This document shows positions 1,905 to 8,854 of a DNA stretch of 8,854 nucleotides, in pieces. The notes beneath the pieces are model-generated. The model made no database searches and was not told the DNA's origin. It saw nothing but the letters and a program-made list of their open reading frames with translations. The number at the start of each line of letters is the position of its first letter. Position 1 is the first letter of the stretch. The stretch is from contig JANXNM010000338.1 in the NCBI GenBank assembly GCA_025354065.1, forward strand, positions 1 to 8,854, written 5' to 3'. The translations under genes were made by a program, and so were the position numbers. Source of the stretch: Synechococcales cyanobacterium 340R_concoct_173_sub (GTDB lineage Bacteria > Cyanobacteriota > Cyanobacteriia > Leptolyngbyales > Leptolyngbyaceae).

Positions 1905-2861
1905 TTAGACATCTAATGGTTTTAAATCAAAAAACATCTTAAAAATACAATCATCCACATTATTAATTCGCGATTGCAACGCATCCAAAAATTCGTGTAA
2001 TCCCGTACCTACCACTTCATCAATCATTAAATAATCCAAATCCGATCGTAACTTTCCAAGATTACGTTCCACTGGGTTACACCAAGTGCCCTTGGGCGTT
2101 CCAGTAATGTGATGCAACGATCGTTCAGCTCGCTGAATACAAAACCGAATCGATCGAGGGAATGCCGGATCAAGTAATAAAAACTTCGCAACAGCCGTCG
2201 GATTGATGCGTTGTAAATCTTGTTTTCGGTACATTTCATAGGCACTAGTCGATCGTAATAATGCGGCCCATTGCAATTCATCCAACGTACTCCCAATGTC
2301 TCGAACAGATGGCAGCAAAATGAAATACTTCACATCTAAAATGCGCGTCGTCTTCTCTGCCCGTTCTAAAAAACGTCCCAATTGTCCAAAATGCCACCCT
2401 TCGTTATGAGTCATTGTTACATTGGTAATGCCGACAAACAGATGACTTTCCAGCTTCACACGGTTGAAAAAGCTTGGCCAGTTTGGTACTACATCTGATT
2501 TCGATGCATCTTTAACAAAGTGATAAAAGTTATTTACCTGCTCCCACATTTCTGATGAAATTATTTCCCGCACCGATCGTGCATTTTCCCGCGCACTATT
2601 CAAACAAGACAGAATTGAATTGGGATAGGCTTCATCAAAGGTCAAAAAATGAATCACATTCTCTGGTGTGACCTTACCGTAGCGCTTAAAAAACAGAGTA
2701 CGATCGCCCGATGCCATAATCAATGGTTCCCACTGCTGAACCATTCCCATGGGCATGTCCAAAGACATATTGAAATTTACATCACTAAAACGAGCAATAT
2801 TCTCTGCCCGTTCAATGTACCGATTGAGCCAATAAATCGAATTTGCAACACGACTAAGCAT
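1905..2861 (-). CDS. Alpha-E domain protein
   Basis: The 318-residue product is a full-length alpha-E domain protein (formerly DUF403, COG2307). It opens with the family signature M-L-S-R-V-A-N-S-I-Y-W-L-N-R-Y-I-E-R-A-E-N-x-A-R. Other family blocks are S-A-R-E-N-A-R-S-V-R-E-I-I-S-S-E-M-W-E near 89-107, the H-F-G-Q-L-G-R-F-L-E-R-A-E-K-T-T-R block around 157-173, and a C-terminal helix ending in F-F-D-L. The fold is all-helical with repeated E-R-A-E elements; it is cytoplasmic, and its biochemical role is unproven. The family is nearly always encoded beside a circularly permuted ATP-grasp enzyme, as here, and has been proposed from gene context to act in a peptide-ligation or amide-forming pathway. 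It starts 62 bases after the ATP-grasp stop, so the two almost certainly share a transcript. No strong Shine-Dalgarno precedes the ATG. Confidence 0.95.
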   Translation of the reverse strand: MLSRVANSIYWLNRYIERAENIARFSDVNFNMSLDMPMGMVQQWEPLIMASGDRTLFFKRYGKVTPENVIHFLTFDEAYPNSILSCLNSARENARSVREIISSEMWEQVNNFYHFVKDASKSDVVPNWPSFFNRVKLESHLFVGITNVTMTHNEGWHFGQLGRFLERAEKTTRILDVKYFILLPSVRDIGSTLDELQWAALLRSTSAYEMYRKQDLQRINPTAVAKFLLLDPAFPRSIRFCIQRAERSLHHITGTPKGTWCNPVERNLGKLRSDLDYLMIDEVVGTGLHEFLDALQSRINNVDDCIFKMFFDLKPLDV

Positions 2862-2897
2862 AATTTAAGCAGCAATAATGGGTTCAAAACTAAAACA

Positions 2898-2939
2898 ATT
2901 CACAAATCGTCATTCACAAATCATTATTCACAAATTACC
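2898..2939 (-). repeat. Three 14-bp tandem repeats at the ATP-grasp / alpha-E junction
   Basis: Three units at 2898-2911, 2912-2925 and 2926-2939 share the exact core ATTCACAAAT (ATTTGTGAAT on the coding strand) and vary in the last four bases. The copy at 2926-2939 encodes the last residues of the ATP-grasp protein (V-I-C-E), and the stop codon at 2924-2926 straddles the next unit. The other two copies fill the gap before the alpha-E gene. The pattern is consistent with slippage or duplication that extended the gap. Confidence 0.85.
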
Positions 2940-4375
2940 CACGTATCTTTACTGCCGCCGCCTTGAGACGAATTTACAACAAGTGATCCTTTCTTCAGCG
3001 CCACTCGGGTCAAACCACCGGGATTTACAAAAATATCTTTACCATACAAAACGTAAGGCCGTAAATCCACATGACATCCCTGGAATTCATCTTCAATCAA
3101 TGTCGGCACCCGAGAGAGATCTAGAGTTGGCTGAGCAATGTAATTCCGAGGATTAGCTTTGATTCTTAATGCAAATTCCTCTCGTTCTTCTAGAGTTGAA
3201 TGGGGACCAATTAGCATTCCATAGCCACCAGATTCATTCGCCGCTTTGACTACTAATTTATCTAGGTTTTGCAACACATGGTCTTGTTCTTTGGGATCCC
3301 AGCACAAATAGGTCGGCACATTGGATAACAGGGGTTCTTCATTCAAATAATACCGAATCATCTCCGGCACATAAGCATAGATTACCTTATCATCTGCAAC
3401 GCCTGTCCCTAGTGCATTTGCTAATCCTAAGCGACCCTGACGATAGACATCCATCAATCCCGGAATTCCTAATAAAGAATCCGATCGGAATGCTTTAGGA
3501 TCAATAAAATCGTCGTCAATGCGGCGGTACAGCACATCGACACGTCGTAATCCTTTAGTTGTACGCATTTGCAAAAAGTCATCGACAACAACCAAATCAC
3601 GTCCTTCGACTAATTCCACCCCCATTTGCTGGGCTAGAAATGAATGTTCAAAATAGGCGGAGTTGTAAATGCCTGGAGACAACAGTGCAACTGTCGGATC
3701 TGTAATATGATCGGGCACTAAATTAGTTAAGGTATCGAGCAAACGACAAGGATATTCTTCTACTGGACAGATGGGGACTTTCTCAAAAACTTGTGGAAAT
3801 GTACTTTTCATCACGCGCCGATTTTCGAGCACATAGGAAACACCCGATGGGCAGCGTAAATTATCTTCTAAAACTAGCCAATTCCCATCCCGATCGCGCA
3901 CTAAGTCACTGCCTGTAATGTGACACCAAATTCCCTTGGGTGGCTTGAGGCCCATACAGACTTTGTGAAAGCCACTGGCCGATTCAATTAATTCTGCCGG
4001 AATAATTCCGTCTTTTACAATTTTCTGGTCGCCATAAATGTCTGCCAAAAATTGATTTAATGCCTCAATGCGTTGTTTCAACCCCTTGTCTAGAGTTGCC
4101 CATTCGGATGCCGAGACGATGCGCGGCACAATATCAAAGGGGAAAATTTTCTCTGTTCCTTGGTCGTCGCTGTAGACGTTAAACGTTACACCCATTTTAA
4201 ACAGTGCTGATTGGGCGGCCCGTTGACGACGCTGTAACTCGGGCATAGTGAGGGACTCGATGCGATCGATTAAGGTCTGAGCATCGGCCCGAGGAACACC
4301 TTGACTCTCAAATAGTTCGTCGTAAAATTGCCCAGGATCGTAGTTTGAAAATTTCACAAGAGTTTGTCCAATCAC
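2924..4375 (-). CDS. Circularly permuted ATP-grasp protein
   Basis: The 483-residue product matches the circularly permuted ATP-grasp family (DUF404/DUF407, COG2308), predicted to activate a carboxylate with ATP and form an amide or peptide bond. Family features are Y-D-P-G-Q-F-Y-D-E-L-F at 12-22, I-F-P-F-D-I-V-P-R near 77-85, G-S-D-L-V-R-D-x-D-G-x-W-x-V-L-E-D-N at 155-172, then C-P-S-G-V-S-Y-x-L-E-N-R at 175-186. The permuted nucleotide-binding half carries V-V-K-A-A-N-E-S-G-G-Y-G-M at 375-387, H-V-D-L-R-P at 435-440, N-P-G-G-L-T-R-V-A at 451-459 and N-S-S-Q-G-G-G-S-K-D-T-W near the end. It heads a two-gene unit with the alpha-E gene. The longest frame starts with GTG at 4375; a second GTG at 4357 (codon 7) brings the start closer to the usual M-x-F-x-x-Y-D-P-G, so the exact start is uncertain. 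The final residues V-I-C-E come from a 14-bp repeat. Confidence 0.96.
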   Translation of the reverse strand: MIGQTLVKFSNYDPGQFYDELFESQGVPRADAQTLIDRIESLTMPELQRRQRAAQSALFKMGVTFNVYSDDQGTEKIFPFDIVPRIVSASEWATLDKGLKQRIEALNQFLADIYGDQKIVKDGIIPAELIESASGFHKVCMGLKPPKGIWCHITGSDLVRDRDGNWLVLEDNLRCPSGVSYVLENRRVMKSTFPQVFEKVPICPVEEYPCRLLDTLTNLVPDHITDPTVALLSPGIYNSAYFEHSFLAQQMGVELVEGRDLVVVDDFLQMRTTKGLRRVDVLYRRIDDDFIDPKAFRSDSLLGIPGLMDVYRQGRLGLANALGTGVADDKVIYAYVPEMIRYYLNEEPLLSNVPTYLCWDPKEQDHVLQNLDKLVVKAANESGGYGMLIGPHSTLEEREEFALRIKANPRNYIAQPTLDLSRVPTLIEDEFQGCHVDLRPYVLYGKDIFVNPGGLTRVALKKGSLVVNSSQGGGSKDTWVICE

Positions 4376-4386
4376 TAATAGTCAGC

Positions 4387-4392
4387 AGTATA
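4387..4392 (-). promoter_or_regulatory. Possible -10 box (TATACT) for the ATP-grasp / alpha-E unit
   Basis: TATACT on the reverse strand lies 12-17 bases before the GTG at 4375. No good -35 box is found 16-18 bases upstream. If used, the transcript would begin almost at GTG 4375, which would favour the downstream GTG at 4357 as the true start. The evidence is weak. Confidence 0.22.
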
Positions 4393-4550
4393 AATCAGCA
4401 AATGATTCTAAAGAGAACGATACTAACAGTTATGGGGAAAAGATGTTCAAGGATAACGTTTAGGGGAAAACTTAAACTTTTCTCGTGATCTGTGGCTTCC
4501 AATTGAATTTATCAGTCCCTAAACCGACATAGATATTTTCCATCTAAAAT

Positions 4551-4584
4551 AAAAACTTCGATCAAAATCTCGATCGAAGTTTTT
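4551..4584 (-). terminator. Rho-independent terminator after the M48 protease gene
   Basis: A perfect 13-bp inverted repeat (4551-4563 with 4572-4584) encloses an 8-base loop. On the reverse strand the stem ends in a T-run (TTTTTATTTT), as in an intrinsic terminator, 22 bases after the M48 stop codon. The left end of the stem also gives a T-run on the forward strand, so it may work in both directions, but no forward gene precedes it here. It separates the protease gene from the ATP-grasp unit. Its stem contains a CGATCG. Confidence 0.85.
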
Positions 4585-4606
4585 TGCGTAATTTTACAGA
4601 GACAAT

Positions 4607-5443
4607 TTAGCCTAATGCTCTCAGACGATTGCGATAAATTGCGGTATCAATACCATCTTTGGTTGTGGTGGGAGCTTGTTGAATTTGACGGTTGAGCTGA
4701 CTGATGCGATCGGCTGTGTTGGGGTGGGTATTGAGAAAGGCGGGAGTTGAGGATTTGCTGGCTAGGAGTTTTTGCATAAAGTTGACCATTTCGACTTGCG
4801 CGTAGCCCGATCGGGTCATGTTTACTAATCCTCGTTTGTCGGCATCAAATTCGTCTTGGCGGCTGTGGGGACGTTTTAGTGCAAGTTCGACCCCGATTTG
4901 GACCGCTTGGCTCTTGTCTAAGCCTGCCACTCCCAGAACGCCTTGGGCGACAGCGGCTTCACGCATTTGCTTTTTAGAATGACCGCCCGTGATGTGTCCC
5001 ATTTCGTGGCCAAGGACGCTGGCGAGTTGGGCTTCGTTGTCGGCAATTTTTAGGAGTCCTTTATTGACGTAGACGAATCCGCCCATGGTGGCAAATGCAT
5101 TAATCCCGTCGTCATCGACGATTTGGAAGGTGAAGGGTAGGTTAGGTCGAGTGCTTTGTGGGACGAGGCGTTGGCCGATTTGGGTGACGTAGGCTGTGGC
5201 AGCGGGGTTATCAAGGATGCGGACTTGACTGGATTTCAGTTCTGCGTCGATTTGTTTGCCGAGGTCCACTTCTTGCCGATCGTTCATGCTGCTGAGTTGG
5301 ACGACTTGGAGACCGCGTTGCAAGATGTCGAACCAACTGAAGGCATGAGAAATGGTGGGGGTTGCAAGGGTGAAGACAAGTGCTGATGCAGCGGCGAGTA
5401 GCGGGTAGAACCAAGACCGACGGGTAGAGAGAGTGGGTTTCAT
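4607..5443 (-). CDS. Exported M48-family zinc metalloprotease
   Basis: The 278-residue product is a peptidase of the M48 (HtpX/Oma1/BepA-like) family. From ATG 5443 it begins with a signal peptide: a basic start, then the hydrophobic run L-L-A-A-A-S-A-L-V-F-T-L-A, and a likely signal peptidase I site after S-H-A. It should therefore act in the periplasm or thylakoid lumen. The zinc site H-E-M-G-H is at 146-150, the third ligand lies in E-F-D-A-D at 198-202, and N-T-H-P-N with His-240 follows. No transmembrane segments remain after the signal, so it is the soluble single-domain type used in envelope protein quality control. A longer frame reaches ATG 5527 but would bury the signal peptide. ATG 5443 has GAGGA nine bases upstream, so I chose it. 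It has its own terminator and is probably monocistronic. Confidence 0.95.
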   Translation of the reverse strand: MKPTLSTRRSWFYPLLAAASALVFTLATPTISHAFSWFDILQRGLQVVQLSSMNDRQEVDLGKQIDAELKSSQVRILDNPAATAYVTQIGQRLVPQSTRPNLPFTFQIVDDDGINAFATMGGFVYVNKGLLKIADNEAQLASVLGHEMGHITGGHSKKQMREAAVAQGVLGVAGLDKSQAVQIGVELALKRPHSRQDEFDADKRGLVNMTRSGYAQVEMVNFMQKLLASKSSTPAFLNTHPNTADRISQLNRQIQQAPTTTKDGIDTAIYRNRLRALG

Positions 5444-5452
5444 GAAATTAAT

Positions 5453-5457
5453 TCCTC
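5453..5457 (-). promoter_or_regulatory. Ribosome binding site GAGGA of the M48 protease gene
   Basis: GAGGA on the reverse strand lies nine bases before ATG 5443. It decides in favour of this start over the in-frame ATG at 5527, because the protein then begins directly with a signal peptide. Confidence 0.7.
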
Positions 5458-5556
5458 GCAAACAGTTGGTGAATAGCTGGTGAGTAAGATGAGACGGAAG
5501 CTGAAATCTTGGTAGATTTGTTTTCAAATATTCTATTAACTGTCGATCGACTTCCT

Positions 5557-5643: not shown

Positions 5644-5871
5644 CTAAAACAGAACCTCATGGTCTTGGTCATTTTCGAGATCTTCTAAAACATCACTTCC
5701 CATGATCGGGGATTAAATAAATCGGCAGTGGAGGTTATCTTTGATGGTCTCCGATCGATCGGAGGTCATTAGGGTGTTTTGTTTAAGGGTTTGGAGGAAG
5801 GTGAGGATTTAGGCGAGTTGGGCTTCGGTGGCGGTTTCGATTTCTTGGAGGAGAAGCTCTTTGACGGTCAT
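5644..5871 (-). pseudogene. Broken small antitoxin-like gene with two in-frame stops
   Basis: From ATG 5871, preceded by GGAG with an 8-base spacer, the frame reads M-T-V-K-E-L-L-L-Q-E-I-E and then reaches A-Q-L-A followed by a TAA at 5809-5811. The same frame goes on with I-L-T-F-L-Q-T-L-K-Q, stops at 5713-5715, and resumes with an acidic tail G-S-D-V-L-E-D-L-E-N-D ending at TAG 5644-5646. The opening matches, from memory, the pattern of small cyanobacterial antitoxin-like proteins (a helix such as L-L-Q-E-I-E, a short linker, then L-x-F-L-x-x-L-K). The first TAA sits where GAA or CAA would be expected. The good ribosome site and the frame kept past the stop point to recent decay. A genuine 20-residue peptide is the alternative. 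It begins 24 bases after the GVAGNVEG-motif gene, as the last member of that operon. Confidence 0.55.
5744..5769. repeat. Loop-free palindrome inside the broken antitoxin gene
   Basis: The central 16 bases at 5749-5764 (CTCCGATC then GATCGGAG) form a perfect palindrome. It extends to 13-base arms with two G-T pairs, covering 5744-5769. It holds two overlapping CGATCG sites. No T-run follows on the gene strand, so it does not look like a terminator. It may simply be an expanded HIP1-like site. Confidence 0.6.
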
Positions 5872-5895
5872 GGGTGAATCTCCGTGGTGGGTCGT

Positions 5896-6288
5896 TCAAT
5901 TCCCAGGAAGTTGTTTTTGATTTTTTTGGTAGATATCGTAGAGACGTTTGCCGACTTCGATCGGGATGCCTGCGGGAGGACAAATGAGTTTGATGCTTTC
6001 GACTCCGCCTGCAAAGAGAATGCTGAGAATGTTTTGCCAGCTTTGCCAGTTTTGCGGATTTTTCTGGGGCATGGTTTGAAAGCCGTTGAGTAGAATTTCA
6101 AAGAGTTCTGCGTCGGTGGCGTTGGGATTCTGTTGGCGGAGCTTTTGGAGGACTTGGGTGAGTTGTTCGGTTTCTTTGAGGTTGGCTTGGGGGGCGTAGT
6201 TATGGATGATTTGATCGCCTTCGACATTCCCGGCGACTCCGGTGACAGGTGCATTGAAGTTGAGTTGGACTTTGGGTTGGTTGGTCAT
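5896..6288 (-). CDS. Small protein with N-terminal GVAGNVEG motif
   Basis: The function of this 130-residue product is not known. Its N-terminus holds F-N-A-P-V-T-G-V-A-G-N-V-E-G-D-Q-I-I at 11-28, nearly the same as the C-terminal end of the HEAT-repeat protein encoded upstream in the same operon. Residues 36-70 form a charged helix pair (L-K-E-T-E-Q-L-T, then N-P-N-A-T-D-A-E-L-F-E-I-L-L-N-G-F). Residues 86-110 are hydrophobic (I-L-S-I-L-F-A-G-G-V, then L-I-C-P-P-A-G-I-P-I), followed by a basic amphipathic end. Motifs of this kind occur at the ends of many cyanobacterial accessory proteins near STAND/NACHT ATPases. The role I infer is a partner or effector recruited through like-like motif contact, perhaps acting on membranes. 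It begins 18 bases after the PIN gene. The ribosome site is weak, which suggests coupled translation. Confidence 0.8.
   Translation of the reverse strand: MTNQPKVQLNFNAPVTGVAGNVEGDQIIHNYAPQANLKETEQLTQVLQKLRQQNPNATDAELFEILLNGFQTMPQKNPQNWQSWQNILSILFAGGVESIKLICPPAGIPIEVGKRLYDIYQKNQKQLPGN
6206..6261 (-). repeat. 56-bp motif-encoding repeat, copy A
   Basis: This stretch encodes the N-terminal GVAGNVEG motif of the 130-residue protein. It matches 7025-7080 without gaps at 47 of 56 positions. Several of the nine differences do not change the amino acid, so the protein motif is better conserved than the DNA. Confidence 0.85.
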
Positions 6289-6306
6289 GGTGGTGATGAG
6301 ATTGAA

Positions 6307-6726
6307 TTAGGGTTTGAGAAGACGAATGAAGCCTGCTTGCTCGAAGTGATGATCTGTTGTGAACGCCGTTTGGATATTGTGGCGTTGCATGAGAATGAAG
6401 GAACTGCAATCGACGAGTGACCAAGGTTTATCGGTTCGTTGTTTACAGAGATTCCAGGCGGCTTCGTCCATATCTCGATCGATATGGATCGTTTTGATAT
6501 AGGATGCATTTCGGATTGCATCGACGATTTCAAAGATTCGATATCGGGGTTGACGCAATGGGCTATGGAGTAGGGCAACGAGTTCGGTCAGGATGTAGTT
6601 ACTCGTGATTAGGGGGTGTCTTTGTTGAATAGCTTGATTGAAAAGTTGAGAGGTGCGATCGTGGAATGGTTCTTGAGTGACGAAGAGACTTGCCCATCCT
6701 GAGGTGTCAATAAAGAGATTATTCAT
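6307..6726 (-). CDS. PIN-domain (VapC-type) toxin
   Basis: The 139-residue product is a PIN-domain ribonuclease, the toxin of a type II toxin-antitoxin pair. VapC-type toxins cut RNA, often tRNA or rRNA, with Mg2+ held by a cluster of acidic residues. Visible here are F-I-D-T-S-G-W at 5-11 (Asp-7), L-T-E-L-V-A-L at 46-52 (Glu-48), the S-L-V-D-C-S-S-F block with Asp-106, and T-A-F-T-T-D-H-H-F with Asp-125. The four expected acidic positions are intact, so the enzyme is probably active. Its ATG overlaps the end of the antitoxin gene by 8 bases, the usual coupling for such pairs, and the antitoxin should hold it inactive in a complex. The target RNA cannot be told from sequence. Confidence 0.92.
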   Translation of the reverse strand: MNNLFIDTSGWASLFVTQEPFHDRTSQLFNQAIQQRHPLITSNYILTELVALLHSPLRQPRYRIFEIVDAIRNASYIKTIHIDRDMDEAAWNLCKQRTDKPWSLVDCSSFILMQRHNIQTAFTTDHHFEQAGFIRLLKP

Positions 6727-6976
6727 TGGGATGCAGTTCTTCGTAAAGGGATTGTCCGAGGTAATAATCGTGGTTCTCGGCTACGTCTGTGATGTCACTA
6801 TTAATACATCCAATCAGTTTGAGCAGGGGATCGATTTCGGGATCGGGGAGGGGGGTGAGCAGTTGGGTGAGCAGTTGGAGAATCATTTGTTCTTCGCTGG
6901 TCTGGGTGTTTTGACGAGCTTGGGTGATGGCTTGTTCGAGACGATCGGGAAGAGTGATGGTGATGGTTTTTGACAT
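6719..6976 (-). CDS. Antitoxin partner of the PIN-domain toxin
   Basis: The 85-residue product begins with I-T-I-T-L-P-D-R-L-E-Q-A-I, a ribbon-helix-helix-like start expected to dimerise and bind the operon's own promoter. Its C-terminal part (D-P-L-L-K-L-I-G-C-I, then D-I-T-D-V-A-E-N-H-D-Y-Y-L-G-Q and L-Y-E-E-L) resembles the tail of cyanobacterial antitoxins found directly upstream of PIN toxins, where it wraps the toxin's active site. It overlaps the toxin gene by 8 bases. A 12-bp in-frame tandem duplication at 6854-6877 encodes Q-L-L-T twice in the linker. It begins 26 bases after the HEAT-repeat gene. No separate promoter is obvious in that gap, so it may be read from the upstream transcript, although such pairs normally control themselves. 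Confidence 0.87.
   Translation of the reverse strand: MSKTITITLPDRLEQAITQARQNTQTSEEQMILQLLTQLLTPLPDPEIDPLLKLIGCINSDITDVAENHDYYLGQSLYEELHPNE
6854..6877 (-). repeat. 12-bp in-frame tandem duplication in the antitoxin gene
   Basis: The forward-strand unit GGTGAGCAGTTG occurs twice back to back (6854-6865 and 6866-6877), giving Q-L-L-T-Q-L-L-T in the antitoxin between its DNA-binding start and its toxin-binding tail. It keeps the frame and would only lengthen a helix or linker. Confidence 0.8.
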
Positions 6977-7002
6977 GGTGAGATTTTGGGGTGGGTTTTA
7001 GT

Positions 7003-8854
7003 TTAACAAATCTGGGGTGGGGAAATGATTTGATTGCCTTCGACGTTTCCGGCTACGCCATAGACAGGTGCATAGAAGTTTTGGATAACTGATCGATCGC
7101 CTCCACCGCCTTCAAGAGATGCGCGATCGGCTTTCCTGAGTTCTTCTGCTTGTCGTTGAATTTCGTAGTTATAGAAATTGCAGTTGGCTTGGATAAGTTG
7201 GATAGCCCTAAATATAGACATTCCTCCATTCCCGCTCAAGAGTCTCCATAGATCAGGAAGGATACATCCAGCATCTTTAAATTTCGGGAGATTTTCTGCG
7301 ATCGTAGCTTGAATCAATGCGTCACTGACAGAGAACTTTTTAATCATTTCTGGCACCGCCTCATGACACTGTAAACCAGCAATCGCCGCTATTTCATATG
7401 TACAAGCTACTCCCTCATCGTCTTTGAATGCATTAACTAATACTTCGCAAACTTGACGTTCATTTTCTTTCCCTAATACTCCTAATGCATCAGCAAAGTG
7501 GCCGCGATAGAATGAATCTGACTCTTGAAAACAATCAATTAGCTTTGGTACAACAATACGTAAATCCTCTTTTTTCATATGGGAATCTCTTACTAATCGA
7601 GTAACTTCTAGAGCAATAGCACTAGCAACGTCTATACTTGGATCATCCAGCAAGATCATGATTTGTGAAGCCGAAAATTCTTTCTTTATCTCAGAGATGT
7701 GACGTACGGCATCTTCTCTAATCCATGGATTGTTATTAGTTAATCGGTCACTATAGAAATCTAGTTGTTGATTAAGAATTTCTGCTTGTGGATCTTCCTC
7801 TTCAATATCTGAGGGGTAGAAGAAGCTTGAGCTAGAATTCACTTTTTGCTTAAGCTTTATGAGAGCACTTATCGCTACATAACATACATCTTTGTTGTAA
7901 ATTAGTAGCATTTTTGATATTTCATCAAATAATATACTATCAGCAGAGTTTCCTAATACCTTAAATAGTTCTAGTGCAGCAATTTTAACATTGTCATCAG
8001 AATCATTGATGCATGTACGTAGTGCTGCGATATAAATATCTTGCGGCATTTCTTTGATAAAGTGACTTCCCCAACTGATTATATCTTTCTCAATTTCATA
8101 GGCTGTATCTTCTACAGTCAAATCTAGTAACCCACTTTCCTCACTGTATTTAATTTCTTTAGGCTGAAGTGATTTAATATTTTTCTTGGATTCTGAAATA
8201 AGTCTAATTATCCCTGTTGCGGAGTCTTTAGTGTAAATCTCAGTTATTCTTTGAACGACAAAATACCTCAATTCACTATTGTTGTCAGATAGGACGAGTT
8301 CTACTGCTGTTTTAACATCAAGTTCGATTAAAGAAGAAACAGCTTTATTTTTGATGAACTTATCATCTATTTTAAAACATTCTACCAAGAGAGGGACTGA
8401 AATTTGAGACGATATGTTTCTTAATTCATAAGCCGCACGATCGGGAAGATCATAGTTTTGGCCAGAATTATGAATGATTTCATTAAGAATATTAGCTGCG
8501 CAGTTAGCTTTTGTCATTCCTAATAAATTGATCTTCATCCATTCAGGGGGATTGATTCTGTTTGGGAGTTGTGATGATTGAACCATGCCAACAGTCTTCT
8601 CCTGAAAGTCCGATCGCACCTCTCCCGCCAACCGCGCGCCCAACATCAAATCCACATTCAAAGCTTGTTCAACGATCGTGATAGCCATTTGCTGATTAAT
8701 TTCAGGAAGCCCTAACATTAGTGCGATCGGCTCGATCCATTTCTGATAATTCAAATAATCTTGTTGAAATAGTGAATATTCGTGATTAGGTAAGATTGAA
8801 AGCCATTCTAAAAGCCGTTGACGATCGCCCATTAAATCTTCTGCTGCATAGTAT
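7003..8854 (-). CDS. C-terminal half of a HEAT-repeat (probable NACHT/STAND) protein with GVAGNVEG tail
   Basis: The frame is open to the right edge: before the ATG at 8832 it reads Y-Y-A-A-E-D-L without a stop, and the preceding context is clearly protein-like. About 616 residues are present and the N-terminus is outside the window. The first 85 residues (G-D-R-Q-R-L-L-E-W-L, then K-W-x-E-P-I-A-L-M-L, then D-L-M-L-G-A-R-L-A-G-E-V) match the segment that in cyanobacteria links a NACHT NTPase to HEAT repeats. Residues about 110-560, counted from ATG 8832, are degenerate HEAT repeats, helix pairs that usually act as the sensor surface. The last 30 residues carry N-F-Y-A-P-V-Y-G-V-A-G-N-V-E-G-N-Q-I-I, shared with the small protein downstream. 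I infer an NLR-like intracellular sensor. The NACHT domain itself is not visible, so that part rests on family resemblance. The middle (about 7310-8430) is AT-richer and has no CGATCG. Confidence 0.83.
   Translation of the reverse strand, partial: YYAAEDLMGDRQRLLEWLSILPNHEYSLFQQDYLNYQKWIEPIALMLGLPEINQQMAITIVEQALNVDLMLGARLAGEVRSDFQEKTVGMVQSSQLPNRINPPEWMKINLLGMTKANCAANILNEIIHNSGQNYDLPDRAAYELRNISSQISVPLLVECFKIDDKFIKNKAVSSLIELDVKTAVELVLSDNNSELRYFVVQRITEIYTKDSATGIIRLISESKKNIKSLQPKEIKYSEESGLLDLTVEDTAYEIEKDIISWGSHFIKEMPQDIYIAALRTCINDSDDNVKIAALELFKVLGNSADSILFDEISKMLLIYNKDVCYVAISALIKLKQKVNSSSSFFYPSDIEEEDPQAEILNQQLDFYSDRLTNNNPWIREDAVRHISEIKKEFSASQIMILLDDPSIDVASAIALEVTRLVRDSHMKKEDLRIVVPKLIDCFQESDSFYRGHFADALGVLGKENERQVCEVLVNAFKDDEGVACTYEIAAIAGLQCHEAVPEMIKKFSVSDALIQATIAENLPKFKDAGCILPDLWRLLSGNGGMSIFRAIQLIQANCNFYNYEIQRQAEELRKADRASLEGGGGDRSVIQNFYAPVYGVAGNVEGNQIISPPQIC
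7025..7080 (-). repeat. 56-bp motif-encoding repeat, copy B
   Basis: This stretch encodes the C-terminal GVAGNVEG motif of the HEAT-repeat protein. It is the partner of 6206-6261, with the same orientation and reading frame and 84% identity. Confidence 0.85.

Follow-up and report, generated by a model that had tools for sequence, protein, structure and literature searches.

The window analysed here, an 8,854-nucleotide stretch of DNA from a Synechococcales cyanobacterium (contig JANXNM010000338.1), probably encodes an NLR receptor–effector pair (a probability of roughly 0.6 for this reading) that would signal in a BASS-like amyloid manner with reversed topology, and beside which toxin–antitoxin genes form a recurrent third element. 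Comparison of related loci showed, at the sequence level, that a receptor and its effector bear matching tags and that the two tags are swapped together. As originally predicted, five genes lie in a row on the reverse strand, with stop-to-start spacings of 26, −8, 18 and 24 bases. Because promoter-like sites (8 vs. 7.6 expected) and terminator-like sites (4 vs. 2.9 expected) occur in the window at about chance level, we infer a single transcript from the gene spacing only. The features are as follows.

7003..8854, reverse strand: NACHT-HEAT-type receptor, C-terminal part (HEAT_2; NACHT in homologues)
7024..7080, reverse strand: receptor C-terminal type A tag NFYAPVYGVAGNVEGNQII (tag comparison)
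6719..6976, reverse strand: VapB-like antitoxin, 85 aa (homologues directly before PIN genes)
6307..6726, reverse strand: VapC-like PIN toxin, 139 aa (PF01850, E = 4.1e-12)
5896..6288, reverse strand: tag-effector protein, 130 aa (homologues; AlphaFold model)
6205..6261, reverse strand: effector N-terminal type A tag NFNAPVTGVAGNVEGDQII (within residues 1–34, pLDDT <50)
5923..6180, reverse strand: effector helical domain (AlphaFold model)
5735..5871, reverse strand: decayed antitoxin-like gene, DUF2281-like by eye (DNA identity to L003)

The receptor gene contributes 616 C-terminal codons to the window and is open at the contig edge, with its N-terminal half lying beyond. Its HEAT repeats (PF13646, HEAT_2, E = 3.2e-12 in Pfam) are of the kind that forms the C-terminal superstructure of NACHT/STAND receptors. 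The homologue P0077, which is 81% identical over 82% of the window receptor query, carries a NACHT domain (E = 3.9e-10), as do P0080 (E = 9e-11) and P0156 (E = 1.8e-7), whose matches cover just 13% and 8% of the query, respectively. These homologies support the prediction that the HEAT gene encodes the C-terminal part of a protein of NACHT-HEAT type, in line with the NACHT/STAND sensor half that had been proposed.

The fourth gene had been said to share a motif with the first. The receptor tag NFYAPVYGVAGNVEGNQII and the effector tag NFNAPVTGVAGNVEGDQII are indeed identical at 16 of 19 residues, with a local score of 78 compared with a mean of 32 against the upstream genes of other loci, and such matching exceeds chance in related loci. 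The same short motif is thus present in adjacent NLR and effector genes, both in the window and in related loci. The effector has 76 homologues among the matches listed, and the Pfam search returned no family above the curated cut-off. In the AlphaFold model, residues 1–34, which contain the tag, show no fold (pLDDT <50), and the helices of the five-helix model lie between residues 37 and 122, with a block of pLDDT 84–94 at residues 41–120. The helical domain had no PDB match at E ≤ 0.001; it was set beside the Bell effector domain, a helical bundle with a transmembrane helix, by description rather than by a Bell profile. A hydrophobic segment, with a mean of 1.46 in the window effector, is clear in the window clade (four effectors with 19-residue means of 1.46–1.99), as it is in L076 and L088 (1.54 and 1.60), but not in L075, L091, L097 and L102 (0.28–0.78) or in L098, L103 and L106 (0.74–1.01). 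This segment would point to membrane action, and its uneven occurrence across effectors is a point against the main reading.

Tag matching was evaluated in two samples of loci and receptors, hand-chosen among the matches listed, with contig-edge matches excluded; the receptor-led sample also excluded loci already in the effector-led set. The effector-led sample comprised 61 of 68 cyanobacterial loci, the other seven lacking an upstream or an effector ORF that could be used. The true mean tag score of the 61 loci was 55.6, compared with a shuffled mean of 30.9 and a maximum of 37.4 in 10,000 shuffles. Two of these scores (L010 and L056) are driven by HEAT repeats, the effector ORF of L003 was taken in the wrong frame, and L057 and L059 are near-duplicates; after removal of these two HEAT-driven loci, the wrong-frame locus and one near-duplicate, the remaining 57 loci scored 55.4 against a shuffle maximum of 39.0. 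Furthermore, when shuffling was confined to effector clades, defined at three cut-offs under which 59, 52 and 46 of the 61 loci share a clade with at least one other, none of 10,000 shuffles reached the true score. An additional shuffle of 38 pairs is partly circular because the pairs were chosen for having a visible partner, whereas the clade shuffle starts from all 61 loci.

In the receptor-led sample, the 41 non-fused receptors scored 40.3, whereas the highest of 10,000 shuffles gave 34.5. With L155 included (42 receptors) the values were 43.9 and at most 35.3, and the shuffle was redone without this locus because its score stems from HEAT repeats. Receptors were detected as the ORF at the search match, replacing an NTPase-motif pattern that recovered just 30 of 75 receptors and under which 423 of 10,000 shuffled means were as high as the true one. 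Moreover, with tag patterns A–F, which were drawn up by eye after inspection of the sequences, all 14 pairs typed on both sides agreed. Against the main reading, no matched partner was seen in 23 of the 61 effector-led loci or for 29 of the 69 receptors of the receptor-led sample. Also against it, L002 and L108 combine a NACHT-HEAT receptor, toxin–antitoxin genes and an effector; a matching tag was sought and found in neither, and the L002 receptor ends in TIR. The co-occurrence of the motif gene with the HEAT gene, which the original prediction called for, was checked across related loci, where matched pairs were found well beyond chance.

The exchange of tags was seen in close relatives of the window. 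The window effector domain is 61–73% identical to those of L006, L008, L051–L053, L057 and L059, in which both the tags and the partners' tags are of types other than the window's. The tag is a swappable cassette: helical domains that resemble one another bear tags of different types, and the tag of the upstream partner changes accordingly. In the syntenic sister genome L001, which is colinear with the window flanks (long blocks of 93.4% and 93.9% identity), the effector domain (5896–6204) is 92% identical and is fused to a different receptor; continuous DNA similarity ends at the tag–effector boundary, and within the receptor gene a match is retained in two short segments. Fusion was found for 27 of the 69 receptors, whose own protein includes the effector domain, and a tag-like stretch was seen by eye at the junction in 15 of 16 fused proteins inspected. 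Fusions were called with effector-only profiles, since a profile that included HEAT columns flagged too many.

Between receptor and effector in the window, the PIN toxin (PF01850) directly follows the antitoxin gene, whose stop its start overlaps by 8 bases. The 85-aa product had no Pfam match, and its homologues lie immediately 5′ of PIN genes in L002, L057 and L059, so that gene context rather than Pfam predicts a VapB-like antitoxin. The VapBC-like pair of the original prediction held as a PIN toxin with an overlapping upstream antitoxin; the place it occupies is not specific to VapBC, since several families fill it in related loci. The fifth gene also proved to be a decayed antitoxin-like gene. 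It runs for 20 codons from position 5871 before a stop, window DNA at 5735–6114 is 85.6% identical to L003, and the L003 frame at this stretch resembles, by eye, the C-terminus of a DUF2281 antitoxin.

Of 29 matched receptor pairs, 18 have toxin–antitoxin genes between their two members. In the separate receptor-led sample, such genes were found on the receptor's own strand no more than 2 kb downstream for 32 of 69 receptors, compared with 5 of 229 background genes (Fisher p ~1e-18), and the toxin–antitoxin ORFs near receptors comprised 63 on the same strand and 0 on the opposite strand. The seeds were derived from the loci themselves and applied identically to the background genes. The flank control (148 of 179 ORFs sampled and 142 scanned, six at locus ends being omitted) is a lower bound because the first 25 of 79 families were given. 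This placement is non-random; therefore, the case that spoke against the original prediction, a PIN pair absent from or randomly placed in related loci, did not arise. The analysis showed that the toxin–antitoxin pair is a recurrent, interchangeable third element that points in the same direction beside many receptor–effector pairs.

At about even odds, this toxin–antitoxin element is only a selfish hitch-hiker or addiction element downstream of NACHT genes, and receptor–effector signalling proceeds independently of it. Several observations agree with such an element: its families are interchangeable (PIN, ParE, RelE, HicA, DUF5615 and DUF3368), copies are broken or partial in L052, L085, L091 and L109, the matched pairs L053, L068 and L076 have no toxin–antitoxin genes, and these genes sometimes lie 3′ of the effector (L142, L149 and L150) or follow 8 of the 29 receptors without a matched effector. 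They also follow the fused receptor–effector gene in 16 of 27 cases. Their absence from some matched pairs counts against the main reading as well. However, free insertion would leave less order than is seen in 32 of 69 against 5 of 229 with all 63 ORFs sharing one strand; selective loss of insertions in the wrong orientation could nevertheless give a similar picture. A more tentative proposal, which we consider rather doubtful, is a three-part immune unit in which an exchangeable toxin–antitoxin cassette would be an integral third arm alongside the NLR receptor and the tag-matched effector; this arm would be released, for example, by an invader that blocks expression of the operon or by activated receptor–effector assemblies that titrate out the antitoxin.

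In the preferred reading of a BASS-like receptor–effector pair, the NACHT-HEAT receptor would sense an invader or another trigger and oligomerise. Its C-terminal tag would then seed the N-terminal tag of the effector by like-with-like amyloid or similar cross-beta templating, and this seeding would cluster the helical domain, leading to a response that is probably growth arrest or death. The toxin–antitoxin genes would most likely retain the module in the genome, or supply a second means of arrest once the operon is no longer expressed. It is unlikely, though a serious competitor, that the tags are instead ordinary short docking peptides, binding one-to-one with each other or with a shared third protein. 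The comparisons reveal matching of short tags only, and the tag has no fold in AlphaFold, which would suit docking peptides; however, the tags are alike on both sides, most tag types are rich in G, N, Q and V by eye, and the paired tags belong to an NLR gene and the effector gene beside it, as the available text of PMC7889193 and PMC9815663 describes for BASS. Recent tandem duplication or common descent of neighbours without function is very improbable: some loci are kin (the near-duplicates L057/L059, and seven receptor-led loci with one tag type and order, whose reduction to one narrows the margin to 33.0 vs. a maximum of 31.5), but one effector clade bears different tags that each match their own partner, the within-clade shuffles gave 0 of 10,000, and the break in similarity to L001 falls at the tag boundary.

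Tag-matched NLR–effector pairs are already known. According to the available portions of PMC7889193 and PMC9815663, BASS NLR/Bell pairs comprise adjacent NLR and small effector genes with a common short motif, of which there are several families, and a helical effector domain, and are reported from bacteria including cyanobacteria. The window pair resembles them, by description rather than by BASS profiles, as an adjacent NLR-type receptor and small helical effector with a common short motif. It differs in that the BASS motif, as given there, occupies the N-terminus of the NLR and the C-terminus of the effector, whereas in the window the receptor bears its tag C-terminally and the effector N-terminally; in addition, the window effector domain has no Pfam family above cut-off, related loci show fusions, and toxin–antitoxin genes lie in or beside many pairs of the window type. 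The window tags share with the EADs of STAND and ternary conflict systems the role of a homotypic adaptor joining an NTPase core to a separate effector (PMC8195603 and PMC7159879, as far as their text was available). In contrast to EADs, which these sources describe as folded domains (9 of 12 alpha-helical), the window adaptor is a tag of ~20–30 residues without a modelled fold. The antitoxin and PIN toxin genes overlap in the order of type II VapBC, but sit between a receptor and its matched effector, where related loci hold other toxin–antitoxin families. The NACHT core and C-terminal sensor region of bNACHT and Avs anti-phage STAND proteins, described in general terms in the accessible part of PMC10907252, are predicted by homology for the window receptor; the window differs in placing the effector in a separate tag-matched gene, and its role in phage defence is putative.

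Among the open-licence papers, in the portions available, none was found with a receptor C-terminal tag and an N-terminally tagged effector, with cassette-like exchange of tags between partners, or with a recurrent multi-family toxin–antitoxin element beside such pairs. The natural tag swaps are ready-made cognate and non-cognate pairs, and so allow like-with-like signalling in bacterial immunity to be put to a direct test. Moreover, the toxin–antitoxin link suggests that chromosomal toxin–antitoxin genes may be partners or guards of NLR immunity. If the three-part unit were true, cyanobacteria would mix receptor tags and toxin–antitoxin families freely.

The window's reverse-strand gene cluster is as follows.

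Genes of the reverse-strand cluster
8853-7003, minus strand: gene with HEAT repeats, truncated at the edge of the contig; the receptor (Pfam: HEAT)
6976-6719, minus strand: VapB-like gene
6726-6307, minus strand: PIN gene (Pfam: PIN)
6288-5896, minus strand: 130-aa gene for the small protein, the effector (Pfam: none above the curated cut-off)
5871, minus strand: decayed antitoxin-like start

The ORF coordinates confirmed the spacings originally given for these five genes. The motif that the original prediction saw in both the HEAT gene and the 130-aa gene was also recovered: NFxAPVxGVAGNVEGxQII (16/19 identical) occupies the last residues of the receptor and the first residues of the small protein, and is referred to here as a type A tag. 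Elsewhere, the window carries adjoining circularly permuted ATP-grasp and Alpha-E genes (1905-4375), CpeT (212-808) and an M48 peptidase (4607-5527), which are ordinary chromosomal neighbours, colinear in the syntenic sister genome L001.

The receptor's own NACHT half lies outside the window, and NACHT was assigned in its homologues, scored on the best 7999 candidates by shared words. P0077, the closest of the long homologues (81% identity, 82% query coverage), contains NACHT, with a HEAT match slightly below cut-off; P0080 and P0156 also contain NACHT and match just 13% and 8% of the window protein. The N-terminal 110 residues of all three are Cys/His-rich and resemble an HNH nuclease; Pfam gave no such match in this segment, which leaves the probable N-terminal domain of the window's receptor without an assignment. 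Among 108 homologues, 48 fit one of six tag patterns written by eye (C 14, B 14, E 6, A 5, D 4, F 4, A+B 1), and in 46 of these the motif begins no more than 50 residues from the protein end. The 60 that fit none include truncated proteins, tags missed by the patterns (P0080 itself) and fusions with a C-terminal effector domain.

The small protein has 76 homologues at E ≤ 0.001. Ahead of their C-terminal domain lies an N-terminal stretch that falls into several dissimilar types, the following four among them; in some homologues, HEAT repeats or a DUF4926 domain come first.

N-terminal stretches of the small proteins
Type A: NFNAPVTGVAGNVEGD
Type B: VGNINTGDVTIQGDQVGIQ
Type C: FPNAQKVQIFEQV
Type D: QIIEQNDGHVIG

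AlphaFold modelled residues 1-34 at pLDDT below 50 and placed five helices within residues 37-122, confidently over 41-120; comparison with solved structures gave no match at E ≤ 0.001.

Relatives of the small protein were found in at least 143 of 388 cyanobacterial genomes (profile search, E ≤ 1e-6, best eight or fewer candidates scored per genome). The locus set comprised 68 loci (60 fetched around small matches, seven earlier loci and the window), 61 of which had both an effector and an upstream ORF. For tag matching, the N-segment of each effector was compared with the last 90 residues of the same-strand ORFs upstream of it, and the best local score was taken. The mean true score was 55.6, against a mean of 30.9 and a maximum of 37.4 in 10,000 shuffles of partners. 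Leaving out L003 (wrong frame), L010 and L056 (HEAT-driven) and L059 (near-duplicate) gave 55.4 against a maximum of 39.0. When partners were shuffled only inside clades of similar effector domains, none of 10,000 permutations attained the true score at any of three cut-offs, which put 59, 52 and 46 of the 61 loci into multi-member clades. By tag pattern, all 14 pairs typeable on both sides agreed.

Inspection by eye found a tag-matched upstream partner in 38 of the 61 loci. Twenty-nine partners look like NACHT-HEAT receptors: 20 from the P0083 search, the window's from the HEAT-protein homologue search, and eight (L006, L057, L058, L066, L069, L085, L093, L110) by eye from fragments or sequence features. 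The other nine are of other kinds, and the tag principle extends beyond NLRs. Such tag-matched small proteins downstream of non-NACHT genes occur at L098, L103, L106 and L107; L077 and L080; and L087, L088 and L090, where Pfam assigned DUF6232 (L103) and pentapeptide repeats (L080) and left the other upstream partners without assignment.

Several results go against the reading of these loci as tag-matched receptor-effector pairs. By eye, 23 of the 61 effector-led loci have no matched partner, some being at contig ends. No matching receptor tag was found in L002, despite a NACHT protein with C-terminal TIR (Pfam), VapBC and a type A effector, or in L108, despite a receptor matched by P0083, ParDE-like genes and a type C effector. 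L054 and L070, with DUF4926-like sequence fused ahead of the effector, and L064, where a DUF4926-like gene precedes it, also lack a matched partner. The effector's hydrophobic segment is not general among the effectors compared.

Comparison of related loci bears on tag exchange. L006, L008, L051, L052, L053, L057 and L059 have effector domains 61-73% identical to the window's; their tags are of type B or C, and those of their upstream partners are B- or C-like accordingly. In L001 the flanking genes are colinear with the window (blocks of 93.4% and 93.9% DNA identity, 87.2% beside the effector). Its effector domain, 92% identical to the window's, is part of a NACHT-HEAT fusion protein with a different tag. 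The unbroken DNA similarity stops where tag and effector domain meet, and the sole remaining matches in the receptor gene are 7095-7194 (86%) and 8588-8669 (90%). This pattern is what exchange of receptor and tag, with the effector kept, would leave. L001 also has two small toxin-antitoxin-like genes (4072-4720) downstream of the fused gene, where the window has none.

An independent sample was led by receptors. P0080 matched in 21 of 116 genomes and P0083 in 109 of 388; 75 regions were selected from the match lists, 71 were used, and 69 had more than 900 bases downstream. These 69 receptors comprise 27 fused to an effector, 13 followed by a tag-matched effector and 29, some at contig ends, with neither within 2 kb. 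The 41 non-fused receptors (L155 left out, its score being HEAT-driven) had a mean score of 40.3 against a maximum of 34.5 in 10,000 shuffles; with one of seven similar loci kept, 35 receptors scored 33.0 against a maximum of 31.5. A same-strand toxin-antitoxin homologue lies within 2 kb downstream of 32/69 receptors and 5/229 other genes of at least 200 aa in the fetched loci (Fisher p ~1e-18, which overstates independence because genomes and genes in the sample are related). Such homologues occur near fused (16/27), split (8/13) and other (8/29) receptors, indicating an association with the receptor gene in general. All 63 toxin-antitoxin ORFs counted beside the receptors share the receptor's strand. 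Gene order is variable: receptor, toxin-antitoxin gene(s), effector in L120, L139 and L177, and receptor, effector, toxin-antitoxin in L142, L149 and L150.

Toxin-antitoxin genes occupy the gap in 18 of the 29 receptor-effector pairs, counting the near-duplicates L057 and L059 separately; the naming of HicB and ParD and the assignment of families to single loci follow our reading plus tblastn among loci.

Toxin-antitoxin genes in receptor-effector gaps
Window, L057, L059: VapBC
L004, L075: antitoxin and RelE-like toxin
L008: DUF2281 and PIN
L052, L085, L110: UPF0175 and DUF3368
L071: HicBA with DUF4926
L073: DUF433 and DUF5615
L086: antitoxin and PIN
L091: lone antitoxin-like gene
L093, L095, L097: RelE/ParE-like
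L102, L109: ParDE

These genes are broken or partial in L052, L085, L091 and L109. By eye, HEAT-like genes or their remnants occupy eight gaps (L006, L051, L053, L058, L061, L063, L066, L069) and a transposase one (L067); two are empty (L068, L076). Pfam on 40 candidate ORFs, some from loci beyond the 29 pairs, gave PIN in 9, UPF0175 in 4, ParE in 4, RelE in 3, and DUF2281, DUF4926, DUF433, DUF5615, HicA and DUF3368 in one each. In the flank control (142 of 179 small flank ORFs, 307.6 kb of flanks, 23 loci), the first 25 of 79 families included UPF0175 (at least 4), PIN (at least 4), DUF3368 (at least 3) and ParE (at least 2). Where effectors have N-terminal HEAT, a HEAT gene tends to take up the gap in place of a toxin-antitoxin pair. 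In L058 and L063 (also L055, L060 and L062), the gene directly before the effector starts, by eye, like a ribbon-helix-helix antitoxin and runs on into other sequence or HEAT-like repeats. L094 (7451-9876) carries a one-strand tandem array of VapBC, a type C effector, a second antitoxin-like and PIN-like pair, and a type E effector.

In the portions available of PMC7889193 and PMC9815663, BASS motifs lie at an NLR N-terminus and a Bell effector C-terminus in adjacent genes, with ten families in actinobacteria, cyanobacteria and archaea. Compared by description, the present pairs follow this principle, with the topology reversed. EADs are described as folded adaptors in the accessible parts of PMC8195603 and PMC7159879, and other amyloid motifs in those of PMC8086366 and PMC12261475, including the fungal GDQN motif, which loosely resembles the type B tag. 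The available text of PMC13092281 mentions NACHT and VapBC solely apart from each other, and the open-licence literature, as far as its text was available, held no description that we recognised of toxin-antitoxin genes inside such tag-matched pairs.

At the sequence level, the loci taken together show matched tags, tag exchange together with the partner, co-directional toxin-antitoxin neighbours and receptor-effector fusions; in 15 of 16 fused proteins inspected by eye, a tag-like stretch marks the join. In the working we propose, a trigger would be sensed and NACHT would oligomerise, the tag would act by templating, and the effector's helical domain would cluster, with arrest or death as the probable outcome; the toxin-antitoxin pair may serve as a stabiliser or as a second arm.
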